This document shows, one piece after another, positions 3,373 through 19,814 of a DNA stretch of 23,148 nt. Under the pieces are notes generated by a model. It saw only the letters and a list, made by a program, of their open reading frames with translations. It made no database searches and was not told the DNA's origin. A program made the translations under genes and the position numbers. How positions within the stretch are numbered: position 1 is the stretch's first letter; every line of letters begins with the position of its first letter. The DNA comes from an uncultured Gemmatimonadales bacterium (lineage in GTDB: Bacteria > Gemmatimonadota > Gemmatimonadetes > JACCXV01 > JAHWKZ01), in assembly GCA_947259315.1 (NCBI GenBank), contig CAMYLR010000005.1, positions 1-23,148 on the forward strand. The letters run 5' to 3'.

Positions 3373-3726
3373 CCAGAACGCCACCCAACATCGTAATCTT
3401 GGGTGGCCGGTTTGGCGGTGTGTACGCGGCAACCTACCTGGGACGCTCCGAGCTCGCGATCGATGGGGCCTACAGCGCCAGGTTGTCCGCGCCGGCGACG
3501 TCGACATCGGTTATGACTATCGCAAGAGCATCTCGCTGGGCTCGGTGTGGCGTTGACGGACCTGTGGGGGTTCAAGATCACCGGCAGGTTGGCGTGGTTT
3601 ATCTACCGCAGCGGCTATTTGGCCAAGCTGGTGGGATTGCAGAACAAGGTGTAGGTCTTGTTCACGCTGGCGATGAACCGGATCTTCGAGCCGGATACCG
3701 CCGGCGGAACCACTGACCGCACGTAA
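3369..3726 (+). pseudogene. remnant of type II NADH dehydrogenase (Ndh/FAD oxidoreductase)
   Basis: The start GTG at 3369 opens PNIVILGGRFGGVYAATYLG, the N-terminal FAD-binding dinucleotide fold of NDH-2 enzymes (motif GGRFGG). After about 35 codons the similarity stops. In other frames, bases 3496-3555 give GDVDIGYDYRKSISLGSVWR, and bases 3552-3726 give a typical NDH-2 membrane-anchoring C-terminus (DLWGFKITGRLAWFIYRSGY, then KLVGLQNKV) interrupted by an in-frame TAG and ending at TAA (3724-3726). Only about 115 codons remain of a protein normally near 400 residues. The gene has lost roughly 300 internal codons and carries at least two frame disruptions and a stop. It cannot make a working enzyme. 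Confidence 0.82.
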
Positions 3727-3732
3727 TCGACG

Positions 3733-4083
3733 TCACCACGTCCAGCCGAACAACTTCGTCCCAACGAGCACGATCAGTATCGCCATCGTCCCGATGATCA
3801 GCGCTTGGAGCTTCTTGCGGCCATACTCTCGCATCTGTCCGAACTGTTCTTCGAACGCCGGGTCTTCGATCGCCTTTTTCCGCAATAAGACCGTAAGACC
3901 GACCTCGGGCGAGAGCCAGCGCTTGTGCACAGTCCCGAGACTCTCCCACGCCTCGGGTGCATTCGCCAACACCCACTCTTTGATCGCTTGTCCTTCGCGT
4001 ACTTGCCGATGGTTCTGAACGAATGCGTACACAACGGCGAGTGCGGCGATCGAGACACCGATCAGTACCGGGATGCTCGTCAT
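3733..4083 (-). CDS. small membrane protein with N- and C-terminal transmembrane helices
   Basis: This 116-residue protein is not recognised. One hydrophobic helix lies at residues 4-21 and another at about 93-112. Between them is a charged soluble stretch with KEWVLANAPEAWESLG and a basic, helix-forming part (HKRW, LLRKKAIEDPAFEEQFGQMR). It is probably a helical hairpin anchored at both ends. The ATG at 4081-4083 has a strong ribosome-binding site, GGAGGAG, six bases upstream in the mRNA. The overall layout recalls UspB-type proteins, but I see no sequence similarity strong enough to name it. The gene ends just beyond the NADH dehydrogenase remnant (convergent). It lies 115 bases downstream of the next membrane protein gene on the same strand. 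Confidence 0.65.
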   Translation of the reverse strand: MTSIPVLIGVSIAALAVVYAFVQNHRQVREGQAIKEWVLANAPEAWESLGTVHKRWLSPEVGLTVLLRKKAIEDPAFEEQFGQMREYGRKKLQALIIGTMAILIVLVGTKLFGWTW

Positions 4084-4198
4084 CGTCTCCTCCGGTCCGA
4101 AGCTCGGGATCCGCTGGTTCGGGTACTTAATACATGACTTTAGGCTGTAGCGCTAGACCCCTGAAGATCAAAGCCTTGCCGTGACGAATCAGATTGAC

Positions 4199-4714
4199 TC
4201 AGAGGGGTCCGATCGGGTCCTCGAAGTCGCCCAACCGCTGGATTTCCCGTCGGAGGCGAGGGTGAGCCAGCCACAAGTAGCCGCCCATCATGAACACCGC
4301 AGCAAGACTCACCAACACGGTGGGCCACATCGGAATAGCGTCGGTCACTGGTTCGACGAAGGCGAGCACCACTCCGATGGTGTGAAAAAACACGAACAGC
4401 GCCAAAAAAAGGACTAGATACCAAAGCTGCGGATACTTCTCGAGCTTGAACACGACCCACGACGCGATCAGCCCGATCAGAAGAAAAAGAACCAGGTGCA
4501 AGCCGTTATAGACGAAGATCGGCGCGGCTTCGATCGTGACGGCATTGCCGCCGTCTAGAGTGCCGAGGAGCCGGTGTCCCAGAACCGCCGCCGTGTGAAG
4601 CAGGTGTCGTCCAGCGATCAGGTTGAGCACGCCGAAGCAGGCGGCCACCGTCGCGTACCCGATCACGCCGGCGATCACGCCCTGACTCAGTATTTGACTG
4701 CGTTCCGTATCCAC
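4199..4714 (-). CDS. four-helix membrane protein of unknown function
   Basis: This encodes a 171-residue integral membrane protein. Hydrophobic segments lie at about residues 12-34, 65-88, 97-119 and 127-150, followed by a basic HPRLRREIQRLG stretch and a short acidic tail. The first two helices are separated by a long loop (LLGTLDGGNAVTIEAAPIF). I do not recognise the family. The start is a GTG at 4712-4714 with no obvious Shine-Dalgarno, so it may be translated by coupling. The alpha/beta hydrolase gene ends only 12 bases upstream on the same strand, which supports one transcript. No metal or haem motif is visible beyond scattered His residues in helices (LLHTAAVLGH, NGLHLVLF, FFHTIG). Confidence 0.65.
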   Translation of the reverse strand: MDTERSQILSQGVIAGVIGYATVAACFGVLNLIAGRHLLHTAAVLGHRLLGTLDGGNAVTIEAAPIFVYNGLHLVLFLLIGLIASWVVFKLEKYPQLWYLVLFLALFVFFHTIGVVLAFVEPVTDAIPMWPTVLVSLAAVFMMGGYLWLAHPRLRREIQRLGDFEDPIGPL

Positions 4715-4726
4715 GTCAGAACCAGC

Positions 4727-5479
4727 TTAGCTATTCACGTGCCCGCTTGCACTGGGCCCGCAGGCGTCTTCGATAAGAGCTCCCGCCGCCGCCCACACCC
4801 TGGGGTCACGGTCCATCCGAGCGTGAGCCACTCGGAATGCTTTCTTCCACCACGGCAAATCTCCGATGTCAATCGCTGAACCTGGCGGTTGATCATAGGC
4901 GAACTTCCAGTTGCCGATGACGCGGGTTCGGCTCGGATCCGTCGCTCGGATGGGGTTCTCACCGGTGATGATCCAACCGTCGTCCTGGTAGAAATTGGCC
5001 GCCCGACGAACGTTAACCGGCACTTCATCATCGCCGAGACCCACACTGTCGATCTGAAGCAGGAACTCGACCGGAACCGATCGAGTAGCGAGCATCCGCG
5101 CAAACTCGACGGCCGCCCAACCGCCGAGACTCTGGCCGTACACGACTAGTCGCACGCGCTGCATCTCTTCTGCGTCCATCGTGCCGTCGCGATCCGCATC
5201 CAACATGCGCTCAACAAACGCTACCGCCAGCGGGATGCGTCGGTTCTCGAACGTCTCGGCGTACATGCCCCGGTCGGAGTCTCGCAACTCGAGCGCCAAC
5301 TCCCGCACGCCCTTGGTGGCGTCGTCCCAGGCGTCCATCCCACCCAAGAAACCGACCACGACACAGGCTCCGGGCGGAGCCGCACGGACCGTCTCGAGAT
5401 CTGGCAGTTGGACGCTCTTGCACGTTGCCAACATGGCCAACAACAGCACCAGGCTGAAAACGACAACTGTGAGCTTCAC
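4727..5479 (-). CDS. exported alpha/beta-hydrolase-fold protein carrying an EF-hand loop
   Basis: This is a 250-residue protein with an N-terminal hydrophobic export signal (residues 1-20; LATC at its end is a near-lipobox with an unusual Thr before Cys). The nucleophile elbow is GQSLGG with Ser117, and Asp144 (LLQIDSVGLG) and a His near residue 218 (FRVAHARM) are candidates to complete the triad. Just before the nucleophile strand, residues 94-105 read DADRDGTMDAEE, a canonical calcium-binding EF-hand loop (D1, D3, D5, G6, D9, E12). This suggests a calcium-stabilised periplasmic lipase or esterase; the substrate is unknown. The start is a GTG at 5477-5479 with weak ribosome-binding sequence. 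It is followed after 12 bases by a membrane protein gene. Confidence 0.72.
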   Translation of the reverse strand: MKLTVVVFSLVLLLAMLATCKSVQLPDLETVRAAPPGACVVVGFLGGMDAWDDATKGVRELALELRDSDRGMYAETFENRRIPLAVAFVERMLDADRDGTMDAEEMQRVRLVVYGQSLGGWAAVEFARMLATRSVPVEFLLQIDSVGLGDDEVPVNVRRAANFYQDDGWIITGENPIRATDPSRTRVIGNWKFAYDQPPGSAIDIGDLPWWKKAFRVAHARMDRDPRVWAAAGALIEDACGPSASGHVNS

Positions 5480-5543
5480 CTGCTATACCACCGGGAAGGT
5501 TGCTGCTAATCGAGTCGCAAAGAGACTCAAATCTAACCCGAGT

Positions 5544-6548
5544 CTAGCTGCTGCGCCTGCCCCGACTTGGCTCGGTCACGTGGTCTGTGTCCGCGTCGCC
5601 GCCACGGTACCACTCGAGAAACAGCTCGAGCCCTTCCGACAGATCGATCTGAGGTTGGTAACCGAGCAAGCTCTTGGCCTTATGGATGTCGGCACAAGTA
5701 CGGGCGACATCGCCCCCAGGGGGAGGATGATACTCGACTATGGGCTGGCTCTTTGAGAGCCAGCCGAGCCTCGCGACCAACTCGTTCAACGTTACGGGTG
5801 GCTTTCCCGATCCGAGATTGAAGACCTCATATCCTTCGTTCTCGGAGACATATGCGAGCGCCGACACCACACCGCGTGTGATGTCTTCGACGTAGGTGTA
5901 ATCACGCTCCATCGATCCGTCTCCGAAGAGCGGTATGGGCTCTTTGTCGAGCAGCAGCCGGGTGAACTTGTGGATCGCCATCTCGGGTCGCTGTCGCGGA
6001 CCATAAACGGTGAAGAAACGAAGACAAAGCGCGCTGAAATTCTGCATGGCGGTATAGGCGCGACACAGATCCTCCCCACTCTTTTTCGTCACCGCGTACA
6101 CCGAGACCGGTACTGCGCGGTCGTCCTCGCGCGACGGTCGTCCAGGATTGTCGCCGTACACCGACGAAGACGAGGCGAAGACGAGGCGACGACAATCGGT
6201 CCTGGTCATCGCTTCGAGCAGGTTCGCCGTTCCGCCAAGATTGGTCTCCACATAGGCGCTCGGATTCCGCATTGACGCGCGGATCCCCGCCTTTGCGGCC
6301 ATGTGAACGACGACGTCAAACGAGCCCCCAGCTAGGACCTCGGTCACAGCCTCCAGGTCTCTTAGGTCTCGTTCCACGAGATTGAAGCGCGAGTGACCGC
6401 GCAGCTGGGTCACGTTCTGAAGCTTCCGCTCTCTCGAGTAGCACGGGTCGAAGTTATCCAGCGCCACGACTTGATCACCGCGGTCAATCAACGCTTCACA
6501 CAAATGTGAGCCAACGAAGCCCGCTCCCCCGGTTACCAAGACATTCAT
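5544..6548 (-). CDS. NAD-dependent sugar-nucleotide epimerase, UDP-glucuronate 4-epimerase-like
   Basis: This 334-residue cytoplasmic extended SDR enzyme starts with the NAD-binding motif GGAGFVGSH (residues 7-15). It then has DNFDPCYS after strand 2, a Ser cluster (FASSSSVYGD, 125-133) and the catalytic Y151-x3-K155 (YAVTK). The segment FTVYGPRQRPEMAIHKF (179-195) is the pattern typical of UDP-glucuronate 4-epimerases, which make UDP-galacturonate, rather than of GalE. Its ATG overlaps the stop of the upstream glycosyltransferase gene by four bases (6545-6548), showing translational coupling. It is the last gene of the operon running down from 9322, and would supply the sugar nucleotide used by the first gene. 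The exact substrate needs biochemical proof; a dehydratase role is less likely given the motif. Confidence 0.85.
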   Translation of the reverse strand: MNVLVTGGAGFVGSHLCEALIDRGDQVVALDNFDPCYSRERKLQNVTQLRGHSRFNLVERDLRDLEAVTEVLAGGSFDVVVHMAAKAGIRASMRNPSAYVETNLGGTANLLEAMTRTDCRRLVFASSSSVYGDNPGRPSREDDRAVPVSVYAVTKKSGEDLCRAYTAMQNFSALCLRFFTVYGPRQRPEMAIHKFTRLLLDKEPIPLFGDGSMERDYTYVEDITRGVVSALAYVSENEGYEVFNLGSGKPPVTLNELVARLGWLSKSQPIVEYHPPPGGDVARTCADIHKAKSLLGYQPQIDLSEGLELFLEWYRGGDADTDHVTEPSRGRRSS

Positions 6549-8254
6549 TCGAGACCCCCTATGCTGGGCTGCACCGCTGCCGGCTCACCCTCTGTGGTTC
6601 TCGCGATGCGACCTATACGATCCGGTACACCGATCAAGTGGTAGAGAGCCAACCCGCGATCCTTGTGGGCCGCTGGCTGTCCGATCACTTCACGCCGAAT
6701 CACCGGCGGCAGAGCGGAAATCTCACCCGGCGACGAGATGACCACCATCTCCCGCCGGCGAAAACGTTCCAGCTCAGTTATTACTTCAGACTCAGATCGC
6801 AACATCCTTACCGGAAGTCGACCGTGGTAAACGTAGGGTTCAGGGGCCACGTTCCAAGTGAAGATCGTCTCCCGCGGAAACGTTAGCATCGCGGCCGAGC
6901 GCCCCAACTGGGCTAGACCCGGTCGATCCTTCGTCCACGCCTGGATCGAGGCGCCCAGAGTCCAGAAGCCGACAAAAAAGAGTGTCACGATACCATAAAC
7001 ACTCACCAGGGCGTTGGGCTTGCATCGAGTTGTTGCCATGGTCGCGAGGCCAAGCACCAGCGAGAGAATCAGCAGCGCTCGGGCCCGAGAGACGACGCCG
7101 TCTGGAAGGTCAGGAACCCTGCCCGCCATCGAGAGCAAGATCACCAAGCCAGCCGCGACGAGCATCCAGTACCCAGGGCCGACCCAGGCGATCGCTCGAC
7201 GTGCCCGACTCCACGCTTCCGGCGTCGACACGATTCTCATCGTTCCCGCGGCGATCAGAAGCAACGCCGGTGCGATAACGGGAAGCAGATAGAACACTCT
7301 CTGTTTCGGTCCCAAACTCAAGACCACGATCGTGACGGCGATAACCAACGCCAATAATCGCGACGCTTGCGCCTTCTGGCCCCCTCGCCAATCCACCGCA
7401 AATAGACACGGCAGCAAGACGAACCAGGGGATCAGGAGTTGTGGGAACCGGTAGGCGTAGTCGAAGGCGATCCCGTCGATTCTCAACAGGCTGCCCGCGA
7501 GCTGAGTCCCAGCAAGCCCGTCACCGTCCAATTGGTGGTGCAAGATCCACCACCACGGCACGGTCAAGCCCAAGTAGACGCCGATGCCCGCTACGGGCCG
7601 AATCCAGCGCATCGCGCTGGCCCTCGGGATCTTTTCGATAACGATCCACAACGCAAACGCCAACAAGAACATCGCCGGGACCTGCGGTCCCTTGGTTAGC
7701 GTCGCCAGCGCGAAGCTCCCCCACCCAATGAGCGGCGCGAGCACTACCCGCTCTCCATCCTTGACGATCAGCGAGCCATAAAGAAAAGCGGCCAAGCCCA
7801 GACCACACCAAAACGCGTACAGCATGTCAGAACGCGCGTTGTGCGTGTACGAGAAGAAGGCCAGCGAGCTGACCAACATGCAGCCCGCCATGAGCGATGC
7901 GCGCCGATCGTACAAGCGAGCACCGATCCAAAGGACGACCGCCACGAGGCCGAACCCTGCGAGCCCGGAAGGTAGACGGCCGTGTCGTGGCTCGAGATAA
8001 CCGACATCACCCGAGAGTCTGCCGGCAACAGCGGTCAACCAATAGCTCAGCGGTGGCTTGCGGAGTCGCGGCTCCCCGTTGAAGTACGGGACGACCCAGT
8101 CTCCGCGCTGACCCATCTCGTGCGCTGTCTGGACGACATATGTCTCATGCGTTTCCAGCGGCGCCAGGTTGAGCTCGCGAGTCGCCAGCAGCAGAGCGCC
8201 GGTTAGCAAGACAGCCCCGCCGAGCCGCCACGCGCTTGGACTCAGGTCTGACAC
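6545..8254 (-). CDS. GT39/ArnT-like polyprenyl-phosphate-sugar glycosyltransferase
   Basis: This is a 569-residue polytopic inner-membrane enzyme with around a dozen hydrophobic segments. The first periplasmic loop after helix 1 holds an acidic pair in LAPLETHETYVVQTAHEM, at the place of the catalytic Asp/Glu of ArnT/PMT-type GT-C enzymes, followed by the family signature PRLRKPPLSYWL (about residues 62-73). Such enzymes take a sugar from a polyprenyl-phosphate carrier and attach it to lipid A or a protein in the periplasm. The C-terminal 120 residues form a smaller soluble domain after the last helix. Spacing is 10 bases from the LAB_N gene upstream, and there is a four-base overlap with the epimerase gene downstream. 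The context favours lipid A or another envelope glycolipid as acceptor. Confidence 0.85.
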   Translation of the reverse strand: MSDLSPSAWRLGGAVLLTGALLLATRELNLAPLETHETYVVQTAHEMGQRGDWVVPYFNGEPRLRKPPLSYWLTAVAGRLSGDVGYLEPRHGRLPSGLAGFGLVAVVLWIGARLYDRRASLMAGCMLVSSLAFFSYTHNARSDMLYAFWCGLGLAAFLYGSLIVKDGERVVLAPLIGWGSFALATLTKGPQVPAMFLLAFALWIVIEKIPRASAMRWIRPVAGIGVYLGLTVPWWWILHHQLDGDGLAGTQLAGSLLRIDGIAFDYAYRFPQLLIPWFVLLPCLFAVDWRGGQKAQASRLLALVIAVTIVVLSLGPKQRVFYLLPVIAPALLLIAAGTMRIVSTPEAWSRARRAIAWVGPGYWMLVAAGLVILLSMAGRVPDLPDGVVSRARALLILSLVLGLATMATTRCKPNALVSVYGIVTLFFVGFWTLGASIQAWTKDRPGLAQLGRSAAMLTFPRETIFTWNVAPEPYVYHGRLPVRMLRSESEVITELERFRRREMVVISSPGEISALPPVIRREVIGQPAAHKDRGLALYHLIGVPDRIGRIARTTEGEPAAVQPSIGGLE

Positions 8255-8264
8255 CGAGACCCCG

Positions 8265-8561
8265 CTAGGTCACCTGAGAGCCAACGGCTCCCACGCGACC
8301 CCGTTCTTCGCGTTGTATCAGCACGAGGTTTCGGATGTAGATGAACAACCCGGTCGACTGCCCTATGATGAACACCGGGTCCTCGCGCCAGATCGCGTAC
8401 GACAGGATCACTACGCTGCCCATAATCGAGAAGTACCAGAACGCACGCGGGATCACGCTTCTCCCTACTCGCTCACTGGCGACCCACTGCACGACGAAGC
8501 GAAGGAAAAAGCACGCCTGGCCAGCCAGGCCGATCGCGATCCAGGTTTGAGAGGAGATCAC
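8265..8561 (-). CDS. stand-alone LAB_N (lipid-A-disaccharide synthase N-terminal domain) membrane protein
   Basis: This small membrane protein of 98 residues matches the LAB_N family: QACFFLRFVVQWVASER, then IPRAFWYFSIMGSVVILSYA, then DPVFIIGQSTGLFIYIRNL. These give three hydrophobic helices in the standard order. A longer reading from 8666 is possible, but its first 35 residues are low-complexity and overlap the glycosyltransferase. The GTG at 8559-8561 overlaps the TGA of that gene (GTGA) and directly precedes the conserved part, so I use it. The domain is named after its fusion to LpxB in some bacteria, but here it stands alone between a polyprenyl-phosphate glycosyltransferase and a GT39 enzyme. 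A role in moving the lipid-linked sugar across the membrane is an inference from position and topology. Confidence 0.85.
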   Translation of the reverse strand: MISSQTWIAIGLAGQACFFLRFVVQWVASERVGRSVIPRAFWYFSIMGSVVILSYAIWREDPVFIIGQSTGLFIYIRNLVLIQREERGRVGAVGSQVT

Positions 8562-9322
8562 AGCCAGGCCCCGAGACGCGCAGTTGTCGGGGCTTCCTTG
8601 GTCTGATACTGGATCTTGCGCCGAAGTAGCCTGCGGACCATCAGCAGATCCGCCAACCCGCACCACAATCGATTGTTGATCCCATACTTGGACTGGCCGG
8701 TGATGCGGGGTCGGTGATTGACGGCCAACTCGTCAATCGTGTAGCCGCCAGCACGAACGAGCGTCGGTAGAAACCGGTGCATCCCCTCGAACCGTACCAC
8801 GCCCAGGAGCGCCTCCTTGGGAAGCAACCGGGTCGAGCAGCCGACGTCGGTGATCTCGTCGCCCAACACCCGGTTCCGGACTTCGTTGGCGATCCGAGAT
8901 GCGGCTCTCTTGATCCACCCATCTGCCCGATCGATGCGGATACCAGTAACGCCATCACATTTCCGCCTTGTGATGACCTCCCACATGCGCGGGATATCTC
9001 TGGGATCGTTCTGGCCATCTGCATCGAGCGTTGCGATCCAATCGCCGAATGCCGCCTCGGCGCCGGCAATCATGGCGGTCGACTGGCCGTAGTTGCGATC
9101 GAACGTCACGACCTGAACGCGTGAGTCGAGATCCGCGAGTTGAGCTAGAGTGCGCGGACCAGCGTCACGGGAGCCGTCGTCGACATAGACGACCTCCCAA
9201 CCCACGTCGAGAGCGGCCATCGCGTCGACGATCTCGGCATGCAAGCGCGGCAGATTTTCGGCCTCATCGAGGAGGGGGACGACGACAGATACGATGACCG
9301 GGTCGTACACCACCGGGACCAT
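8558..9322 (-). CDS. GT2 polyprenyl-phosphate glycosyltransferase (DPM1/ArnC/RgtE-like)
   Basis: This 254-residue GT-A fold enzyme transfers a sugar from a nucleotide sugar to a polyprenyl phosphate at the cytoplasmic face. Visible motifs are VSVVVPLLDEAENL (residues 11-24), VDDGSRD (47-53) and the metal-binding DADGQNDP (100-107, DxD at 100-102). Further on are RNRVLGDEITDVGCSTRLLP and a basic C-terminal NHRPRITGQSKYG motif typical of the dolichyl-phosphate-mannose-synthase branch. It lacks the two long C-terminal transmembrane helices of ArnC/GtrB and so resembles the soluble DPM1 type. The start is ATG 9320-9322, with a purine-rich GGAGGGGAGG upstream at slightly long spacing. It is the first gene of the operon, and its TGA overlaps the LAB_N start. 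Confidence 0.88.
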   Translation of the reverse strand: MVPVVYDPVIVSVVVPLLDEAENLPRLHAEIVDAMAALDVGWEVVYVDDGSRDAGPRTLAQLADLDSRVQVVTFDRNYGQSTAMIAGAEAAFGDWIATLDADGQNDPRDIPRMWEVITRRKCDGVTGIRIDRADGWIKRAASRIANEVRNRVLGDEITDVGCSTRLLPKEALLGVVRFEGMHRFLPTLVRAGGYTIDELAVNHRPRITGQSKYGINNRLWCGLADLLMVRRLLRRKIQYQTKEAPTTARLGAWL

Positions 9323-9432
9323 GCTCCGTCGCGCCTCCCCTCCAAGCAGTAGTAACGCTTACTTATAGAGGGAGCGCCTGACGACGAGAGTTTGTGGCGT
9401 TGGTTTGGAGTGTCTTGGAGTCGTGAGAACGC

Positions 9433-10167
9433 TTAGAACTCGATCCGGTAAAACTCTCCATCCTGGTCAAACTCGTTCTGCAAGACCCTGGAACCCCGCT
9501 TGGCAAAGACGGTGCGCGTGCCGACTCGAATCACGATTTGCGACAGGTTGTCGGGCAGTGTGATCCGGTAGCTGGCGGTCGCGTTTTGGTTCTCGACTTG
9601 GATCGATCGATCCCCGACCGCGAAGCCGATCGGGTCACCGCGGACCTCGATTCTGGCGCTGTCGGTCTCAATCAGCCGCATCTCGATCGAACCGCTGGGC
9701 TGTCCGGCCTCGAAAACGACCTCAATCGCCCCGTCGGGGGTCATCGCCACGCCGGTTTGAGCATCCCACGGCTCTAAGGGAGCTATCGGTTCGGACGACT
9801 CGGTCCCGAGCTCCTCGAGCAGATTCTGGACGATCGTTCGCACCGGCGATCCAGGAATAGCGGCCGCCACAACCGTCGCCACAACCAGACCCGCGACCGA
9901 GGCCGCCCAAGCGATTCCACGCGGTGCCTTGCGGGTCGGGATATGCCGACGCTGAGCGATCTCGATCAGCTGGTCAGCAGATATCGCGGGTGGAGACTCG
10001 TCGAGCGCCGTCAGCAGCTGCCCCGTTTCGCGAAACACGGACCTCATCGTCTCCAACCGTGCCGCGCATTGCTCACACCCCGCAATATGCGCCCGAAGGC
10101 TCTCGTCCTCGTTCCCGCTCAGCTCCCCATCGAGCAGCGCTTGCAGTTCGCCGTCATGCAGATGCAT
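9433..10167 (-). CDS. zinc-finger anti-sigma factor with one transmembrane helix
   Basis: This membrane-bound regulator holds the neighbouring ECF sigma factor inactive. The N-terminal ZAS-type domain has H27-x3-C31-x2-C34 (HIAGCEQC). A single transmembrane helix lies at about residues 84-104. The periplasmic part (105-244) ends in a beta-rich domain (GSIEMRLIETDSARIEVRG, then a Gln/Asn-rich stretch and RITLPDNLSQ). I chose the ATG at 10165-10167, since GAGGAG stands seven bases upstream. A start at 10188 is possible but poorly placed. It overlaps the end of the sigma gene by 14 bases, as expected for a coupled sigma/anti-sigma pair. The C-terminal domain is not one I can name; it is presumably the signal-sensing part. 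Confidence 0.86.
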   Translation of the reverse strand: MHLHDGELQALLDGELSGNEDESLRAHIAGCEQCAARLETMRSVFRETGQLLTALDESPPAISADQLIEIAQRRHIPTRKAPRGIAWAASVAGLVVATVVAAAIPGSPVRTIVQNLLEELGTESSEPIAPLEPWDAQTGVAMTPDGAIEVVFEAGQPSGSIEMRLIETDSARIEVRGDPIGFAVGDRSIQVENQNATASYRITLPDNLSQIVIRVGTRTVFAKRGSRVLQNEFDQDGEFYRIEF

Positions 10168-10690
10168 CGACCATCTCCTCATAAGCACGCTGAAAAGCCA
10201 GCGTCGCGCGGCTGATCAGTTTTCCGACTCCGGCTTCGCCATAATCGAGGGCCCGCGCGATCTCGCGATAGGTATAGCCTTCATGACGCAGCAACAGAGC
10301 TTGCTGGTCGCGGACCGAAAGCGTCGCCAGAGCCTTTCGGACGCGCCGCTTCCGCTCGTCAGCCTCCAACCGTTCTACCGGATCGGAGCTGGTGTCCTCG
10401 TATAGCCGATCCGCCTTGGCTTCCAATAGCTCCCGCCTCCTGCCCGTACGCCGGTGGGCATCGCGAAACAAGTTGTTCGACACCGTCACCAGCCATGCTC
10501 TCGGGTCATCGGGTAATTCACCTCGTTGGTACAACCTCACAAAGGACTCCTGGGCGATGTCCGCGGCCGTCGCTGGGTCCCCGCATAGCCGATTCACATA
10601 GCGGAACAGCGACTGGAACCGCGCCTCAAAGACATCCCGAAAAGCGCGCTCGAATGTTTCATCCCGTTTCACGTCCCGGCGCTCACTCAC
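10154..10690 (-). CDS. ECF-type RNA polymerase sigma factor
   Basis: This is a 178-residue sigma-70 family factor with only regions 2 and 4. Region 2 covers about residues 24-92 (ARFQSLFRYVNRLCGDPATA, DIAQESFVRLYQR, then DDPRAWLVTVSNNLFRDAHR, which contacts the -10 element). Region 4 covers about 110-168 (LSVRDQQALLLRHEGYTYRE, then IARALDYGEAGVGKLISRA, a helix-turn-helix for the -35 element). The start is a GTG at 10688-10690; a second GTG (residue 7) is an alternative. The gene overlaps the anti-sigma gene by 14 bases and lies 95 bases downstream of the TonB receptor gene on the same strand, so all three may share a transcript. The target promoter is not identified. Confidence 0.92.
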   Translation of the reverse strand: MSERRDVKRDETFERAFRDVFEARFQSLFRYVNRLCGDPATAADIAQESFVRLYQRGELPDDPRAWLVTVSNNLFRDAHRRTGRRRELLEAKADRLYEDTSSDPVERLEADERKRRVRKALATLSVRDQQALLLRHEGYTYREIARALDYGEAGVGKLISRATLAFQRAYEEMVDASA

Positions 10691-10785
10691 TCCCAGGAGA
10701 CCCGGTTCACAAATGGAACGCTTGACTCTTCAGATATGTGGCGATACGAGTAGGATTTTGCCCAGGCTAAACCGCGGCTCGGCGA

Positions 10786-13095
10786 TCAGAAGCTCCACTC
10801 CAGGCCAAATGTGGCCGACGCCGGGAGAAGATCCAGACCGCGGCGCTCGAACTCCGACGGGGTAACCCCGTATCCGATAAAGTTGTCACGGCCCAGCACA
10901 TTGGTTACGTCGAGGTAGGCCATAACCGAGCCCGAAAGCCCGAGCAACGAGGGGTTCCATTCCCGGCGGATACCGACGTCCAACCGAACGTAGGCCGGCA
11001 ACCGTTCGTCGTTTACCGTCTCCGAGACCCGAAGCGGTGTTCCGCTGAACTCGACCTCGCCGCTCAATCGATCAAACGTCTCCCAGTCAAAACCCTCCTG
11101 GATCGGGCTGGTGGGCCGACCCGCCGCCGCCTGGAAAGCGGTGCGCACCTTGGTTTGCGGGGTGAGACGGTAGGAGGCTGCCGCAATCACCGACCGCCGT
11201 CGTTCAAAACCAGGGTTGTAAGTGATATCGCCGGTCCGCCGCTCGATCCTACTCCATTCGATGATCGCCTCAGCGTCGACTCGATCGCCCCTGTAGAACA
11301 GCGCCGCACCCGTACCGATCGCCCGCCCCTTCCCCTGTTCGAACCCGTCGACTGCGAACGGCTGGGCTGTCACGGGCGCCACGAGAACCAGGTCGTCGAG
11401 CCACCGAACGTGTCCATCAACCGTCAGGAGAAGACGATCCGACAGCCGGGCCTCCAACGCAGCGGTCAACTGGTCGGAACGCCCTACCGGCACGTTCTCA
11501 GTATCGGCCGTGACCAATGGCTCAGCTCCAAAGGCCGCGGTAAGGAGCGATTCCTCGTTGCGAAGCGACTGTACGTACTGATGGACTCGTGCGTATCCAC
11601 CCGAGAGAGTGATCCTCGCATCGGGCCGGTAGTGAACCGACAACCGCGGTTCGAGCGCCACGCCATGACCATCGGCAAAGACGGCGCGCATTCCGTTGTT
11701 GACGATCCAGTGATCGCGCGCGATCCAGCGGTGCTCGACGTACGTCGACACCATCTTTTGGTTCGATCGCAGGTCCAAAACGGCGTCCGCATCAGCCAAG
11801 CTCAGCGCTGTCTCGCTGGTCAACGGATCGGCGACGTATTTGGAGGACAGCGCCTCGACCGTGATCCCGGCTCGCCCTACCGTCTCGGACCGCACCCACG
11901 AGACGTCACCCGACGCCCCCCAGTGTTTGAGCCCATTGACGGTCTGGTAGCGCGCGGAGTTGGTGCCCCAGTGAATGTCCGAGTTCGTCGTCGAGCGCCA
12001 GAGTTGAAAACGGATCTCGGACGTGTCGTCTGACGAGCGAGTCCATGCGATGGCGTTAGTCGATGCCGACCACAGGGCGCTGTTCCTCGCGGCTTGATCT
12101 TCTTCCGCGACGAGAGACTCGTCGATCACGTTTGCAAAGAGCCAGTTATCTGAGGTGAGCGAGACGACGTCGAAGCGGCCCCCCAGCGCATCGATCGATA
12201 CCTTGCCGAGCACGTCGTCGAAACCACTCGTGCGTCCTTTGTCGAGGAACGGGCCCCGCCGGAACAGGTCGTACCTCGTTCGACGACCGCCAACCAGCAC
12301 CCCGCCGGTGTTGCCCGGCATCGGCGAATCAACCGTCATACGGAAATCAGCCAGCCCCGCACCACCCTGGACCCGCAACCCATTCTGACCGGGCACCGGC
12401 GTCTCGACATCCACTACGCTCGATAGCCGGCCACCGTACCGTGCCGGGAACACGCCGGTGTGGACTGCGACCTCCGACACCGCGTCGGGGCTGATCGCGG
12501 ACATGACCCCGCTCGTGTGGTAGGGGTTGTATACCGGGACTCCGTCCAACAGGATCAGGTTCTGGTCAGCCGAGCCACCACGCACGTGAAGCTGGGTCGG
12601 CGACTCTTCGGCCATATCGATGCCAGGGACGATCGACAGGATCTCGAGAACATCGGGCTGGCGGGCCAGCGGGTCGGACCAGAGCACCTCGCCGGCCAAC
12701 ACCCTCGAGCCGATCTCGGGTAATCCAGTGGGCTCGAGAACCTCGCCCGGATCGAGCAACGACGCGTAGGCGAGCGCCGAGATCTCGGGGAACACAATGA
12801 AGCGGGTTCGCAATCGAACGTCCAGGCTAAGCGAACCGTCGTGCGGCACGGTGATCTGTAGCTCGAGGGGGTGATAACCGAACTGGGAGAACCGGATCTT
12901 GTACTCGCCCGGTTCGAGGCCTTCGATCTGGTAGGCGCCGGTCGAGTCCGACCACGCCACCACGTCCTCAGCCGGGATCTCGATCCGCACGCCGCCGACC
13001 GCTTCGTAGCGGTCGGACTCGATCGTCCCGTGAACGGAACCGTCCCCCGGAGGGGGCCCGAGGGACATCACGGCTATGAGCGCAAGCCTGATCAT
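10786..13095 (-). CDS. TonB-dependent outer membrane receptor with N-terminal carboxypeptidase-regulatory-like domain
   Basis: This is a 769-residue outer membrane beta-barrel importer. The start ATG at 13093-13095 begins a signal peptide (MIRLALIAVMSLG); an ATG at 13137 would add 14 residues without a plausible leader. Residues about 18-97 form a CarboxypepD_reg-like beta domain (GSVHGTIESDRYEAVGGV, then GAYQIEGLEPGEYKIRFSQF). A plug domain follows at about 130-250 (ILSIVPGI, QLHVRGGSADQNLILLDGVP, VYNPYHTSGVMSAISPDAV, ARYGGRLSSVVDVET). The rest is a barrel ending in the aromatic C-terminus FGLEWSF. No STN signalling domain is present, so it does not look like a FecA-type transducer. The ligand is unknown. 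It is followed by an ECF sigma factor and an anti-sigma factor. Confidence 0.9.
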   Translation of the reverse strand: MIRLALIAVMSLGPPPGDGSVHGTIESDRYEAVGGVRIEIPAEDVVAWSDSTGAYQIEGLEPGEYKIRFSQFGYHPLELQITVPHDGSLSLDVRLRTRFIVFPEISALAYASLLDPGEVLEPTGLPEIGSRVLAGEVLWSDPLARQPDVLEILSIVPGIDMAEESPTQLHVRGGSADQNLILLDGVPVYNPYHTSGVMSAISPDAVSEVAVHTGVFPARYGGRLSSVVDVETPVPGQNGLRVQGGAGLADFRMTVDSPMPGNTGGVLVGGRRTRYDLFRRGPFLDKGRTSGFDDVLGKVSIDALGGRFDVVSLTSDNWLFANVIDESLVAEEDQAARNSALWSASTNAIAWTRSSDDTSEIRFQLWRSTTNSDIHWGTNSARYQTVNGLKHWGASGDVSWVRSETVGRAGITVEALSSKYVADPLTSETALSLADADAVLDLRSNQKMVSTYVEHRWIARDHWIVNNGMRAVFADGHGVALEPRLSVHYRPDARITLSGGYARVHQYVQSLRNEESLLTAAFGAEPLVTADTENVPVGRSDQLTAALEARLSDRLLLTVDGHVRWLDDLVLVAPVTAQPFAVDGFEQGKGRAIGTGAALFYRGDRVDAEAIIEWSRIERRTGDITYNPGFERRRSVIAAASYRLTPQTKVRTAFQAAAGRPTSPIQEGFDWETFDRLSGEVEFSGTPLRVSETVNDERLPAYVRLDVGIRREWNPSLLGLSGSVMAYLDVTNVLGRDNFIGYGVTPSEFERRGLDLLPASATFGLEWSF

Positions 13096-13137
13096 AGTTT
13101 CCGCTCTTCGGAATATCGCGGCAGGCGCTGCATCCAT

Positions 13138-13516
13138 TCAGTTTACCGGACCGCGCCCAACCTGTCTATCCGAAGTCCCCTACGAGTAGCTGTAGAAGTG
13201 GTCAATTCCTGGATTTCAGGCCTCCAGAAACGACTCCGACATATGCACTTCGGCCATGACTCACGGCTTCTACAGTGGGAACGTATGACCGCATGCAAAT
13301 GTGGCGAGAAGCCCGCTCAAGCGGAGGTCGGACCAGGGTTGGCGGGCAACTCGCCACGAGGGCGGGCGCTGGATGGGCCCGTTGCAGGGCATCGGGACCC
13401 ACCCGTTGTAGCGCCCTAGGTACCCTGAGTGAGCGTCAGGGTCCTACGGGATCTGCTACTTGGGGAACGATCCGCTACAGTGGGTTGTGGCGCGACTCGC
13501 GTGACGTGGCAGAGCC
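13138..13516. other. about 380-base region without a convincing gene
   Basis: This stretch lies upstream of the TonB receptor gene and beyond the 3' end of the FkbM gene. Both strands have short open frames, but none has a recognisable domain, leader or good ribosome-binding site. It holds a perfect 7-bp hairpin, ACCCTGA (13422-13428) and TCAGGGT (13436-13442) with a 7-base loop and no T-tract. It also holds a 9-bp inverted pair, CTGTAGAAG (13190-13198) and CTTCTACAG (13267-13275). It should contain the receptor's promoter; I cannot identify -35/-10 elements with confidence. Confidence 0.5.
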
Positions 13517-14314
13517 TTAGCGTTGGCGACGCAAGGCCTCCAGAACCGTAGGTTTGACCCACAGGGCATCAGCCTGGACGGCCTTACCGCTGTCGTTGTG
13601 TAGACACGGATAGATGTCTCGAAGGACGAAACCGAACTCTGTCGTCAACCGCTCGTGGACCGCACCAAAGTCCGTTTGCCCGCTGTACATGGGAGACAGC
13701 ATCACCTCGCTGTAGAACGCAATTACGCGTTCGCGCATTGTCTCTCGGCCGCCTTCGATCAGGAGCCCCTCCGCGCCCTGCACGTCTGCCTTGAGTACCA
13801 AGCGTCCGCGCGGGATTTCTCTGGCTGCCCACTCGTCGAGCGTGGTCGTTCGTACTTCGATTCGCCTCACGTGAGTGCTCTCTTCTCCGAAAGATTCCTC
13901 GTTCTCCGCATCATTGTCGAGGAGCGAGTTTGTCTGCTCATCGACGTTGCAGAAGAATTCATGAACCCCGCTCTCGTTCGAAAGCGCCACGTTGTGGAGA
14001 ATCACCTGGTTCGATCCGCCAAACCGCTGTTGGAGTTGCTGAAACGACTCCGGAGTGGGCTCGAAACCATGGACGGGTATCGATCCAAGCTCATCGAGAT
14101 AACGGACAATAGTACTCCCCTCGTGACTCCCGACATCGAGGATCGCTGCGGGACGCAGCAATCGGCAGATCCTCACGATCTCGCCGTACGCGTCCGGCAC
14201 GTTGAAGGCGCTTTTTATTCTCCGCGCTAGACGACGCTGGGGGCCTCGCGTGAGCTCGTGTGCGGTCAGTGCTCCGTGCGCCCTATAGAGGATTCGGGAT
14301 ATGGGAGTGCCCAT
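13517..14314 (-). CDS. FkbM family methyltransferase
   Basis: This 265-residue SAM-dependent methyltransferase is of the FkbM family, which often O-methylates sugars of surface polysaccharides or natural products. SAM motif I is AILDVGSHEGS (residues 57-67) and the second-strand motif is GFEPTPES (83-90). The family signature LKADVQGAEGLLIEGG (174-189) is clear and close to the usual LKIDVQGAE. The TTTLDEWA segment before it is also typical. The ATG at 14312-14314 has no clear Shine-Dalgarno. The gene stands alone on the minus strand, with the cupin gene divergent 158 bases away. Given the glycan genes at 5544-9322, an envelope sugar is a reasonable but unproven substrate. Confidence 0.88.
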   Translation of the reverse strand: MGTPISRILYRAHGALTAHELTRGPQRRLARRIKSAFNVPDAYGEIVRICRLLRPAAILDVGSHEGSTIVRYLDELGSIPVHGFEPTPESFQQLQQRFGGSNQVILHNVALSNESGVHEFFCNVDEQTNSLLDNDAENEESFGEESTHVRRIEVRTTTLDEWAAREIPRGRLVLKADVQGAEGLLIEGGRETMRERVIAFYSEVMLSPMYSGQTDFGAVHERLTTEFGFVLRDIYPCLHNDSGKAVQADALWVKPTVLEALRRQR

Positions 14315-15335: not shown

Positions 15336-18020
15336 TCACGGGATCGGCTCACCCGGTTCGATCACCGACTCACCAGGCTGCTCGTCGCCGAACGCCTCGG
15401 CGACCGCCTCGTCAAGCGACAACTCGCTCCCCTCGGCCCAAGTAACTGCAAAGACCTCTTCACCGAGGGCTTTCCGCGCCGCGTTGACCGAGCGGTCGTA
15501 GAGCAACTGGTCTGGAGGATCGAGCGTCCGACCCTGGGCCGCCAGACCTGCCTCACCGGCACCCAGCAGTCGCGCCGCTAGATCGTAATCACCTCGAGTG
15601 GCGTGGACCTCCGCCATACCGATGAGCGCTTGCAGACGACCCGCCAGATGATGGAGCTCGGCGGACACTTGCACCGTTTGCCGATAGCGTCGGTCGGCTT
15701 CATTCGTGTTCCCCATCGCGTGCGCCGTCTGACCCAGGTTGAAGAGGATATCCACGTCCCGATAGCGATTCCCATACTCCTGACACCGCACGCGCGCCTC
15801 CTCGTACATCGCTTCTGCACGCTCCAAGTGCCCCCAGTATCGAGCCGTTTCTCCCTGGTTCACGAGCAGAACGAGCTCCGAATCCCGGTCGCCGAGCTCC
15901 CGGGCTAACTTCAACCCCTCCTCGGCAGCAACAGTGCCGATCTCGTAGTCACGCTCGCTGAGCGATGCGTTCCTCCCGACCGCCGAGAGCGCGAGCACCA
16001 AGCTTCGCTTGTCACTTACCTCCCGCGCGACCGCCAACGCTTCGTTGGCCGCCGAACGAGCGCGATCTTTATCGCCGTGAAAGAATGCCAGCGCGCTCAA
16101 GGCACTCAGTGCCTGGCTACTCGCGATGCTCGGTTCCGAGCCAGCAACAAGCGCCCGCTCGCACCACCCGATCCCCTCGGTCAGCAAACCCTCAGACTTC
16201 CACGAATGCTTCATCGAAGCCACGATACGAAGCGCCGGCTCGATTTCATTTCGCGCCAGACTCCACTCCAATGCCGCCCGCACGTTGTCGTTCTCGGTCG
16301 CCACCAACTCCAACCTCGGTGTCACTTCCGAACCCAACCCAAGCACCAACCCCTCTACGAGTGCAAGCGCCCAGTCCCGTTGTCGGCGCTCGATCGTCTC
16401 ATCCTCTTCCGCGGCGGTGAGCTTCTCACGCGCATACTGTCGCGTCGTCTCCAGCAGCCGGTAACGCATTCCTGAATCGTCATGAGGCTCCGCAATGACG
16501 AGGGATTTGTCTACCAGTCGCGACATCAGATCAAGCGCTCCCGGCTCGCCCCAGATCGCTTCCGCGGCGTCCAGCGTCCAGCCGCCAACGAAAACCGCCA
16601 ATCGCCGTAGAAGCACCTGTTCCTGCGGTTCCAACAAATCGTGGCTCCAGTCGATAACCGCCCGAAGCGTCTGGTGGCGGGGTGATGCGGTCCGGCTGCT
16701 GACTCCGAGAAGCTGAAAGCGATCGTCGAGACGCTCGGCGATCTGATCCAGAGAAAGGACCGCAACTCGTGCGGCGGCCAACTCGATCGCGTGTGGGATG
16801 CCGTCCAGTCGTGCGCAGATCTGACCTATCGCTCGAGCGTTGTCCTCATCGATAGCAAAATCCGGTTGTACGAGTCCCGCACGATCTACAAACAGTTGGA
16901 CCGCCTCGTAGGCGCCTAGATCCAATGGAGAAGCGTCCTTTGGATCCGCTCCGATATCTGGCGCCGCCAACGGGGGCACCACGAATACGACTTCTCCCGG
17001 GATGCCCAGCGTCTCCCGACTGGTAGCGAGCACTTTCAGCCCCGGGGCCGCGCGTAATGCGGACTCAACCCACTGAGCGCTCGCATCAATCAAGTGCTCA
17101 CAATTGTCCAACACGATCAGCACGGTTTGTGGACCCAGATTCTGCATCAACGTGTCGGCCACATCCCGACCCGGCACCTCACGCAAACCGAGGGCGCTCG
17201 CTACGGTCTGTGGAACTCGCGTGGGATCACGAAGCCTGGCTAGCTCGACAAACCAGACTCCGTCAGCGAACGCCTTTGATGCCTGAGCCGCCAGTTGCAG
17301 GCCGAGACGGGTCTTGCCTTGTCCCCCAGCACCGGTAAGCGTGACGATGCGATGTTCAGCCAACAGTTCTCGAACTTCTGCGATCTCCGTCTCCCTACCC
17401 ACAAAGCTCGTAAGCTGCAGCGGTAGGTTGTGGGGCAGCGTGTCGAGCGATCTCAAAGGCGGGAAGTCCGTCCGGAGAGACGGGTGATCCAGTTGGTAAA
17501 TCTGTTCGGGGGATTCGAGATCGTGGAGCCGGTGGTACCCTAGGTCGCGTAGCGCCACACTGTCAGGTGGCGAGCCACTCACCAAATCGCATGCCGTTCG
17601 GGAGAGAACCGTTTGGCCACCGTGGGCCACCGATACGAGACGGGCCACTCGGTTGACCGCCGATCCGTAGTAGCCTCCCTCTCGTGGGTCCGCCGCGCCG
17701 GTGTGGATCGCTACGCGAACCCGCAGTCGACTCCCGGCACGTTGAGCTTCCCGGTCAAGATCGCGTTGAATGACCAGCGCCGCTCCGACCGCTTCCGGTG
17801 CCCGCTCGAACACCGCCCAAAACCCATCGCCGACAGTATTGAAGATGCGTCCACCGTTGGCGCTGACCGCATCGAGGACGATCTCGTCGTGGCGCTCGAG
17901 GTTCGTCTTCATGCGGTCAGCATCCTCTTCCCAAAGACGCGTGCTGCCCTCGATGTCGGTAAAGAGGAACGTGACCGTCCCCGATGGAAGATCAGTACCG
18001 GCGGACGAGTGTGTGATCAT
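15336..18020 (-). CDS. class III nucleotidyl cyclase - NB-ARC-like ATPase - TPR signalling protein
   Basis: This is a large cytoplasmic regulator of 894 residues. The N-terminal class III adenylyl/guanylyl cyclase domain (about 13-185) has metal Asp22 (FTDIEGST) and Asp65 (VGDGFW), and the transition-state pair Asn and Arg in GSAVNRVARL. The usual base-selecting Lys and Asp appear replaced by Asn61 and Gly. Then comes a STAND-type ATPase: LPLQLTSFVGRE, Walker A LTGAGGQGKTRL (about 230-241), Walker B VLIVLDNCEH, and LATSRETLGIPGE as sensor. After a winged-helix part, the last 300 residues are alpha-helical TPR-like repeats. This resembles the large family of predicted cyclase-ATPases related to AfsR/MalT. 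I use the ATG at 18018-18020, close to the domain; a TTG at 18068 is an alternative that would overlap the divergent gene. It is divergent from an AraC regulator. Confidence 0.87.
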   Translation of the reverse strand: MITHSSAGTDLPSGTVTFLFTDIEGSTRLWEEDADRMKTNLERHDEIVLDAVSANGGRIFNTVGDGFWAVFERAPEAVGAALVIQRDLDREAQRAGSRLRVRVAIHTGAADPREGGYYGSAVNRVARLVSVAHGGQTVLSRTACDLVSGSPPDSVALRDLGYHRLHDLESPEQIYQLDHPSLRTDFPPLRSLDTLPHNLPLQLTSFVGRETEIAEVRELLAEHRIVTLTGAGGQGKTRLGLQLAAQASKAFADGVWFVELARLRDPTRVPQTVASALGLREVPGRDVADTLMQNLGPQTVLIVLDNCEHLIDASAQWVESALRAAPGLKVLATSRETLGIPGEVVFVVPPLAAPDIGADPKDASPLDLGAYEAVQLFVDRAGLVQPDFAIDEDNARAIGQICARLDGIPHAIELAAARVAVLSLDQIAERLDDRFQLLGVSSRTASPRHQTLRAVIDWSHDLLEPQEQVLLRRLAVFVGGWTLDAAEAIWGEPGALDLMSRLVDKSLVIAEPHDDSGMRYRLLETTRQYAREKLTAAEEDETIERRQRDWALALVEGLVLGLGSEVTPRLELVATENDNVRAALEWSLARNEIEPALRIVASMKHSWKSEGLLTEGIGWCERALVAGSEPSIASSQALSALSALAFFHGDKDRARSAANEALAVAREVSDKRSLVLALSAVGRNASLSERDYEIGTVAAEEGLKLARELGDRDSELVLLVNQGETARYWGHLERAEAMYEEARVRCQEYGNRYRDVDILFNLGQTAHAMGNTNEADRRYRQTVQVSAELHHLAGRLQALIGMAEVHATRGDYDLAARLLGAGEAGLAAQGRTLDPPDQLLYDRSVNAARKALGEEVFAVTWAEGSELSLDEAVAEAFGDEQPGESVIEPGEPIP

Positions 18021-18100
18021 CCTGGAAGCGGTTCCAGATTCAACCTCGCGTGCAGAAGCTCTGTTCAAACGTCAGGCAATCTACTCGCGAGGAGTCCGGG
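18021..18100. promoter_or_regulatory. shared divergent promoter region of cyclase-ATPase and AraC genes
   Basis: With the starts chosen here, only 80 bases separate the two divergent genes, so their promoters must overlap each other or the coding sequences. The plus-strand ribosome-binding site GCGAGGAG (18087-18094) lies six bases before the TTG start at 18101. No clear operator repeat is visible. This is position-based inference. Confidence 0.4.
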
Positions 18101-19524: not shown

Positions 19525-19699
19525 CCTCGATACCTCCCTTTTGTCGTGACGAGCGAGTCGGGGTCGTCCCAACTCGTTCTCAAGATCGGGAGGCGAATCG
19601 AGTGCGGCTTTCAGAATCGTGCGAAAAGCACGACGCTCGAACCGGAGTAGTAAAACCCCTGACAAATGTACCCCGCCCTACAGGCGTGTCTGGGAATTC

Positions 19700-19767
19700 C
19701 CTTACACATCGACCGGGACGCACCCTGACATACCGACGCCTACGTAACAGCTACCATGTGTGTAAGG
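19700..19767. promoter_or_regulatory. inverted repeat upstream of octahaem cytochrome gene
   Basis: The 290-base divergent gap 19525-19814 contains CCTTACACA (19700-19708) and its exact reverse complement TGTGTAAGG (19759-19767). The half-sites are about 59 bases centre to centre and end 48 bases before the chosen start. This could be a regulator dyad or chance. Nothing else is clear in the gap. Confidence 0.3.
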
Positions 19768-19814
19768 TATTCAACCACACCCTCACCGGCGGGTCTAATG
19801 AATCGGGGTTTCTC

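Follow-up and report, generated by a model that had tools for sequence, protein, structure and literature searches.

A LAB_N-containing gene cassette from a Gemmatimonadota genome with a possible role in lipid-linked galacturonic acid transfer

Results

Gene content of the locus

The window analyzed here, 23,148 nucleotides of DNA that make up contig C5 (CAMYLR010000005.1) of a 2.4-Mb Gemmatimonadota metagenome-assembled genome (MAG) that is 96% complete, carries on its minus strand four genes that resemble the parts of a lipid-linked sugar cassette. Specifically, in the order of transcription these encode a glycosyltransferase family 2 (GT2) protein of 254 aa, apparently a polyprenyl-phosphate sugar synthase of the ArnC/DPM1 type (8558..9322; Pfam Glycos_transf_2, E-value 8.8e-28); a stand-alone LAB_N protein of 98 aa with a GTG start and three helices (8265..8561; Pfam LAB_N, 6.7e-32); an ArnT-like GT-C glycosyltransferase of 569 aa, also with a GTG start, to which we assign the proposed periplasmic transfer step (6545..8254); and a putative UDP-glucuronate (UDP-GlcA) 4-epimerase, which would produce UDP-galacturonate (UDP-GalA) (5544..6548; Pfam Epimerase, 1e-63). 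The GT2 stop and the LAB_N start share the bases GTGA (8561-8558), a 10-base gap separates the LAB_N stop from the GT-C start, and the GT-C stop and the epimerase start share ATGA (6548-6545), an overlap of frames that is expected for translational coupling. The coordinates and family scans confirm the four minus-strand genes, their order, and the three junctions as described in the initial annotation of this DNA.

The epimerase and its substrates

The closest solved proteins to the window epimerase in the PDB are 5u4q, BcUGAepi (6zl6), and MoeE5 (6kv9), the first of which is nearly identical to a Klebsiella Uge-type epimerase included in our tree. In an alignment, the window protein keeps S/T126, S127, S128, Y149, K153, T178, and R185 (BcUGAepi numbering, with the Thr/Ser positions being those that we take to bind the carboxylate). 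All seven diagnostic residues are likewise present in the 8/8 cassette epimerases that were aligned, whereas GalE, RmlB, and ArnA deviate from BcUGAepi at most substrate positions. Arg185 is known to grip the carboxylate of UDP-GalA and the Thr/Ser residues that of UDP-GlcA (PMC12338863). In the tree, whose outgroup branches are long, the window epimerase groups with BcUGAepi and Klebsiella Uge (support 89/85), apart from GalE, RmlB, and ArnA, and its nearest neighbors are Hymenobacter epimerases that themselves stand beside a LAB_N gene (85/94). The comparison with UDP-GlcNAc(A) epimerases was made by PDB and NCBIfam score, giving 162 bits for WbpP versus 212 for BcUGAepi. Identification as GalE, RmlB, ArnA, or TviC is contradicted by the model scores and the residues. 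Judged by its sequence, UDP-GlcA/UDP-GalA is a well-supported substrate pair for this enzyme; the earlier label of UDP-GlcA-4-epimerase-like is borne out by the PDB matches, the complete signature, and the clade, and the tree groups the protein with characterized enzymes of this type rather than with GalE, RmlB, or ArnA. It matches BcUGAepi, MoeE5, and Klebsiella Uge in all diagnostic residues and in clade, and differs from them in that its gene shares an operon with the genes of a lipid-linked sugar cassette. UDP-GlcA epimerase-like proteins in several public plasmid records (L049, L058, L062, L065) are annotated as GDP-mannose 4,6-dehydratase.

The LAB_N protein and the GT2

An AlphaFold2 model of the LAB_N protein, built from five sequences, has three helices and a pLDDT of 74.7, and superimposes on the SemiSWEET 5uhs with Z 11.8 and 1.3 Å over 80 residues. 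The top 22 rows of this structure search are all SemiSWEETs, SWEETs, or mitochondrial pyruvate carriers (MPC), down to Z 7.4, and the first unrelated row appears at Z 6.7. Foldseek also ranks SemiSWEETs first with this model, albeit at a weak E-value (0.065), and a sequence profile of 18 LAB_N proteins has the SemiSWEET 4x5m as its first PDB match (E 0.0034). The protein is therefore predicted to have the SemiSWEET fold over its whole length. A Phocaeicola gene encodes a fusion of two LAB_N units (209 aa; L072 5623-6252), and fused or tandem double units occur in Hymenobacter (L067 2980-3648, L058 5608-6276), where they adjoin a two-component system and RND efflux genes; such pairs parallel the step from SemiSWEET to SWEET.

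The Pfam name LAB_N, together with a match to N-terminal sequence in a long LpxB model, might suggest that the protein is a detached LpxB N terminus and that the cluster belongs to lipid A disaccharide synthesis. We consider this highly improbable and have dismissed it: a complete LpxB sits on contig C19 of the same genome, and LAB_N is a stand-alone protein, found beside GT2 and GT-C or sugar genes and present in a Gram-positive (Paenibacillus).

The best PDB matches of the window GT2 are ArnC and the GtrB-type sll0501, yet it covers only positions 8-213 of the 316-position ArnC model, and the C-terminal membrane helices, two in Escherichia coli ArnC, are absent in 16/16 cassette GT2s. It is also relevant that MPDU1 and the SWEETs form one family, whose InterPro labels include the name LAB_N (Saudek, PMC3281891). 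Taken together, the SemiSWEET fold, the fused copies, the helix-less GT2s, and the kinship of MPDU1 and SWEETs lead us to propose that LAB_N flips a polyprenyl-phosphate sugar. By analogy with DPM2/DPM3, which serve the soluble DPM1, LAB_N could instead anchor the GT2 to the membrane or activate it, with flipping left to another protein; this is the main competing view. The cassette GT2s do lack membrane helices of the ArnC/GtrB kind, and a Paenibacillus locus has GT2 and LAB_N together while the GT-C is missing. This role nevertheless seems less likely given that the LAB_N fold is that of transporters (SemiSWEET, SWEET, MPC), that LAB_N is found as fused pairs in the manner of SWEETs, that Hymenobacter LAB_N has no GT2 in the stretch inspected, and that the cassettes hold no other flippase gene. 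LAB_N is thus likely to act as a flippase, or else as an anchor, for a polyprenyl-phosphate sugar that we take below to be polyprenyl-phosphate galacturonic acid (GalA).

The GT-C

The window GT-C has zero Pfam matches at E 0.01; PMT_2 scores 29.3 bits in the genome search, and the sole NCBIfam match is ArnT (NF009784) at 58.8 bits, far below the cut-off of 567. A profile of 16 cassette GT-Cs retrieves ArnT (5ezm) from the PDB at 8e-66 and lists no protein mannosyltransferase; assignment to that group has no support in either NCBIfam or the profile search. E37, K66, D143, and K188 are invariant with E. coli ArnT. Of the former designation as GT39/ArnT-like, the second half stands, and the GT39 label is better replaced by ArnT-like GT-C, since the protein groups with ArnT and not with protein mannosyltransferases. 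The sequence is thus ArnT-like, although it would not be filed as ArnT. Cassette GT-Cs are very diverse (about 20% identity), and the idea that those from epimerase-bearing cassettes form one clade was not borne out, with at least four changes on the tree.

Genome setting

Lipid A genes are present in the genome: an LpxC/FabZ fusion and LpxK (both by model), LpxB, and lpxA-like and lpxD-like neighbors read from sequence. A TuaD-like UDP-glucose dehydrogenase is encoded on another contig (C6:191039-192364), so the cassette, contrary to what had been supposed, does not hold the whole precursor route. The remark that no arnA/arnB-like genes are found here applies to the window; genome-wide, a lone UDP-GlcA decarboxylase-like gene of the ArnA-C/UXS type lies on C8 (L079 10835-11872) with unrelated flanks, near lipid A genes, scoring 290.5 bits against a UDP-xylose synthase model with a cut-off of 294. 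Bifunctional ArnA is absent from the genome, where the best full-model match reaches 253.8 bits versus a cut-off of 777 and spans the decarboxylase half only. An Arn system was considered and set aside: bifunctional ArnA is missing, and the GT2, DegT, and deacetylase genes on C8 fit LegC/PseC- and XrtA-type models better than ArnB/ArnD.

The genome also contains a second GT2-LAB_N-GT-C set, on C3 at about 170.5-173.2 kb (L012 8516-11159), beside moaA and with no epimerase; its orthologues are present in the genus and the family. Identity between the window and C3 proteins is 56% for GT2, 70% for LAB_N, and only 27% for GT-C, a pattern that suggests one donor module serving two acceptor modules.

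Recurrence of the cassette and its partners

Clusters of GT2, LAB_N, and GT-C occur in Gemmatimonadota, KSB1, Fusobacteriota, Alpha- and Gammaproteobacteria, and Bacteroidota. Our cross-phylum survey used a plasmid collection, in which some records look like chromosomes; a tblastn search with LAB_N found 19 records from 10 genera. A signature-bearing UDP-GlcA epimerase lies within a few genes of LAB_N in 7/10 of these genera, namely Paracoccus (L051, L057), Cetobacterium (L049), Ilyobacter (L050), Hymenobacter (L058, L067), Paenibacillus (L052), Aeromonas (L056, probably a chromosome), and Phocaeicola (L072). For comparison, 297 UDP-GlcA epimerase places in the 7.3-Gb collection give 0.0006 expected per 15 kb, a rate to be read as an order of magnitude because sugar genes cluster and the genera are not fully independent. 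The cassette-adjacent epimerases fall into at least two subclades, and their distribution on the tree requires four or more label changes, which argues that the association of epimerase with LAB_N arose repeatedly.

The arrangement of these clusters is also informative. In three genera (Cetobacterium, Paenibacillus, and Aeromonas), UDP-glucose dehydrogenase (Ugd) is found in the same cluster, and for all three dehydrogenases the best model is TuaD, at scores under its strict cut-off. In Paenibacillus (L052 2859-6330), the genes run Ugd-epimerase-GT2-LAB_N, each overlapping or abutting the next; the Cetobacterium order is GT2-LAB_N-epimerase-Ugd-GT-C; and in Aeromonas, Ugd and the epimerase converge on GT2-LAB_N-GT-C. 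Phocaeicola (L072 3258-7315) has all four parts of the window cassette in a single row, in which the genes for the GT-C, the GT2, the double (fused) LAB_N, and the epimerase abut or overlap one another. The gene-order survey called for in the initial annotation thus finds the epimerase and LAB_N/GT2 together again in distant phyla, with Ugd in three genera. Response regulator and sensor kinase genes adjoin many LAB_N cassettes (L049, L050, L053, L057, L058, L067), which hints at stress-induced control.

Within the Gemmatimonadota, LAB_N is rare (9/395 genomes, 6/138 genera). Among the genomes examined, a signature-bearing UDP-GlcA epimerase is present in 10/10 with LAB_N versus 10/20 without it (Fisher, 0.006); at the genus level the corresponding figures are 6/6 and 10/17 (p 0.08).

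A block that is missing in a sister species

Upstream of the GT2 lie, all on the minus strand, genes for a zinc-finger anti-sigma factor (9433..10188; zf-HC2, 1.7e-7) and an extracytoplasmic function (ECF) sigma factor (10154..10690; Sigma70_r2 and r4_2), both likely regulators of the block described here, and for a TonB-dependent receptor-like outer-membrane protein (10786..13137; Plug and CarboxypepD_reg domains). Together with the GT-C, LAB_N, and GT2 genes, these form a block (6555..13512) that the sister species G001 lacks at the corresponding site. The G001 sequence (L110, from its contig C274) matches window positions 3524-6554 at 76% and then 13513-13629 at 83%, with only 113 bases between the two matches (L110 3771-3883) versus 6.96 kb in the window. 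Orthologues of the GT-C and the receptor were both absent from the G001 assembly, which is 79% complete. The epimerase is therefore a resident gene, and the block was either gained beside it or lost in G001; alternatively, the 7-kb difference may stem from misassembly of one MAG. Because the G001 site has the epimerase and lacks the block, the four-gene operon appears to be a local assembly, which speaks against the cassette being one old unit. Homologues of the ECF sigma factor (48%), the anti-sigma factor (31%), and the TonB receptor (30%) occur beside the cassette of G323, a genome from another family, and hence the block looks like a unit.

Elsewhere in the window, a gene for a Kdo/WaaP-type lipopolysaccharide (LPS) kinase marks the start; 15336-18068 encodes a 910-aa protein that combines a cyclase domain of the adenylate/guanylate type with an NTPase domain of the NB-ARC/AAA type and TPR repeats; and 19602-20966 and 1484-1945 encode multiheme cytochrome-like proteins with CXXCH motifs.

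Discussion

We suggest that the window encodes a three-component lipid-linked glycosylation system for GalA, a reading that we regard as probable, though by no means assured. From the computed gene content, junctions, epimerase type, ArnT kinship, LAB_N fold, and partner recurrence, we infer the sugar, the flipping, its direction, the acceptor, and the regulation as follows. The UDP-glucose dehydrogenase encoded on C6 would oxidize UDP-glucose to UDP-GlcA, which the window epimerase would convert to UDP-GalA. The soluble GT2, docked on the membrane, would place GalA on polyprenyl phosphate, and a dimer of the SemiSWEET-like LAB_N would let polyprenyl-phosphate GalA reach the periplasmic side. 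There the ArnT-like GT-C would hand GalA to an envelope acceptor, with LPS (lipid A or core) the likeliest in a host that has lipid A. The adjacent ECF sigma/anti-sigma pair probably turns the set on. The earlier proposal of GalA as the sugar is supported by the epimerase type and by the recurring association of the epimerase with LAB_N/GT2 in distant phyla, and GalA remains our best guess.

It is worth considering the observations that weigh against this scheme. No UDP-GlcA epimerase adjoins the cassettes of Azospirillum, Thalassospira, and Pelagovum, and in the nine other cassette-bearing Gemmatimonadota genomes examined, the epimerase is present and non-adjacent; that of G001 stands without a cassette, and thus the adjacency in the window may be recent. 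Caulobacter bears GalA on its lipid A and carries rgtD/E/F-like genes, yet a control search found it to lack LAB_N, which is therefore not required for GalA decoration. A literature search returned no experiment on any LAB_N protein and nothing on function beyond the fold family. Likewise, the AlphaFold2 model of the window GT-C is poor (pLDDT 38), and this protein has His36 in the first periplasmic loop at the position of Asp55, the catalytic residue of ArnT (PMC7801869). The residue that follows, E37 (ArnT E56), is retained; the C3 copy has Thr at the catalytic position, where more than half of the other cassettes have Asp, and an E-x-x-E motif at this site is common to both Gemmatimonadota GT-Cs. 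His36 may reflect either a changed mechanism or an alignment that is slightly off.

It is conceivable that the cassette does not use GalA at all, that the epimerase serves another polysaccharide, that the 7-kb block came to lie beside it by chance, and that the GT2 loads another sugar; the resident epimerase of G001, the lack of an epimerase alongside the C3 set and its orthologues, and the UDP-GlcA decarboxylase-like gene on C8 would all fit. We consider this unlikely in view of the repeated origin of the epimerase-cassette combination in other phyla and the overlap of the GT-C and epimerase frames that is typical of translational coupling.

If GalA is indeed the sugar, its acceptor may be something other than lipid A. 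Paenibacillus, a member of the Bacillota, has no lipid A. The core of the cassette is nonetheless found in this Gram-positive, and lipid A as the acceptor, as first put forward, is not supported. It is quite possible that GalA is delivered to the LPS core, an O-antigen, an exopolysaccharide, a secreted protein, or a cell-wall polymer. The Ugd-epimerase-GT2-LAB_N cluster in Paenibacillus favors such acceptors, as do the diversity of the cassette GT-Cs and the contrast between the window and C3 sets, in which GT-C identity is far lower than that of GT2 and LAB_N, a pattern that resembles a donor module paired with differing acceptors, as in gtrAB/gtr-type systems. On the other side, among solved GT-Cs the nearest is ArnT, an enzyme that acts on lipid A, and several cassettes are flanked by two-component systems, reminiscent of how lipid A modification is controlled. 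Furthermore, Azospirillum lipoferum, whose lipid A bears GalA at C-1 (PMC7663294), has both features, as strain 4B carries a GT2-LAB_N-GT-C set.

It is informative to compare the proposed GalA system with those already known. As in Arn (ArnC, ArnE/F, ArnT), a carrier-loading GT2, small membrane protein(s), and an ArnT-like GT-C are encoded in one operon, and the precursor starts from UDP-GlcA. Arn places 4-amino-4-deoxy-L-arabinose (Ara4N) on lipid A, however, and the cassette has a UDP-GlcA epimerase in place of ArnA/ArnB/ArnD, a SemiSWEET-fold LAB_N in place of ArnE/ArnF, a GT2 without membrane helices, and a genome without bifunctional ArnA. The Rgt systems of rhizobia, Caulobacter, and Aquifex, which act on lipid A and core, share a polyprenyl-phosphate-GalA synthase (RgtE), GT-C transferases, and GalA as the sugar (PMC7663294), whereas Caulobacter does without LAB_N; here the comparison is by description rather than by sequence. 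Gtr systems (GtrA, GtrB, Gtr*) likewise combine a donor-loading GT2, a small flippase-like membrane protein, and a variable GT-C, but GtrA is of the SMR type and LAB_N of the SemiSWEET type, GtrB has membrane helices, and the sugar is Glc or Gal (PMC11127046). Finally, DPM1 and MPDU1 offer a soluble DPM1-like GT2 and a PQ-loop/SWEET-family protein that act with polyprenyl-phosphate sugars and GT-C enzymes; this is only an analogy; LAB_N is a single three-helix unit compared with seven helices, and the sugar differs. By design, we judge the cassette to be a variant of the Arn/Gtr/Rgt three-component systems; a SemiSWEET-fold LAB_N as the transport component is without precedent in what could be searched.

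Flippases of lipid-linked monosaccharides are largely unproven, both in bacteria and in the endoplasmic reticulum. A 98-residue SemiSWEET-like LAB_N tied to a DPM1-like synthase is a small and assayable flippase candidate, with a sugar that can be predicted from the recurring epimerase, and a flippase role would give the misnamed LAB_N family a function. We tentatively extend this idea to the family as a whole: stand-alone LAB_N proteins may be bacterial SemiSWEET-fold flippases for polyprenyl-phosphate GalA or other uronic acids, the counterpart of MPDU1, which together with the GT2 and interchangeable GT-Cs would form a mobile, widespread, and as yet unnamed three-component system that includes Gram-positives. 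If this is true, GalA-decorated envelope glycans would be predicted in gut Bacteroidota such as Phocaeicola, in Fusobacteriota, in Paracoccus, and in others.

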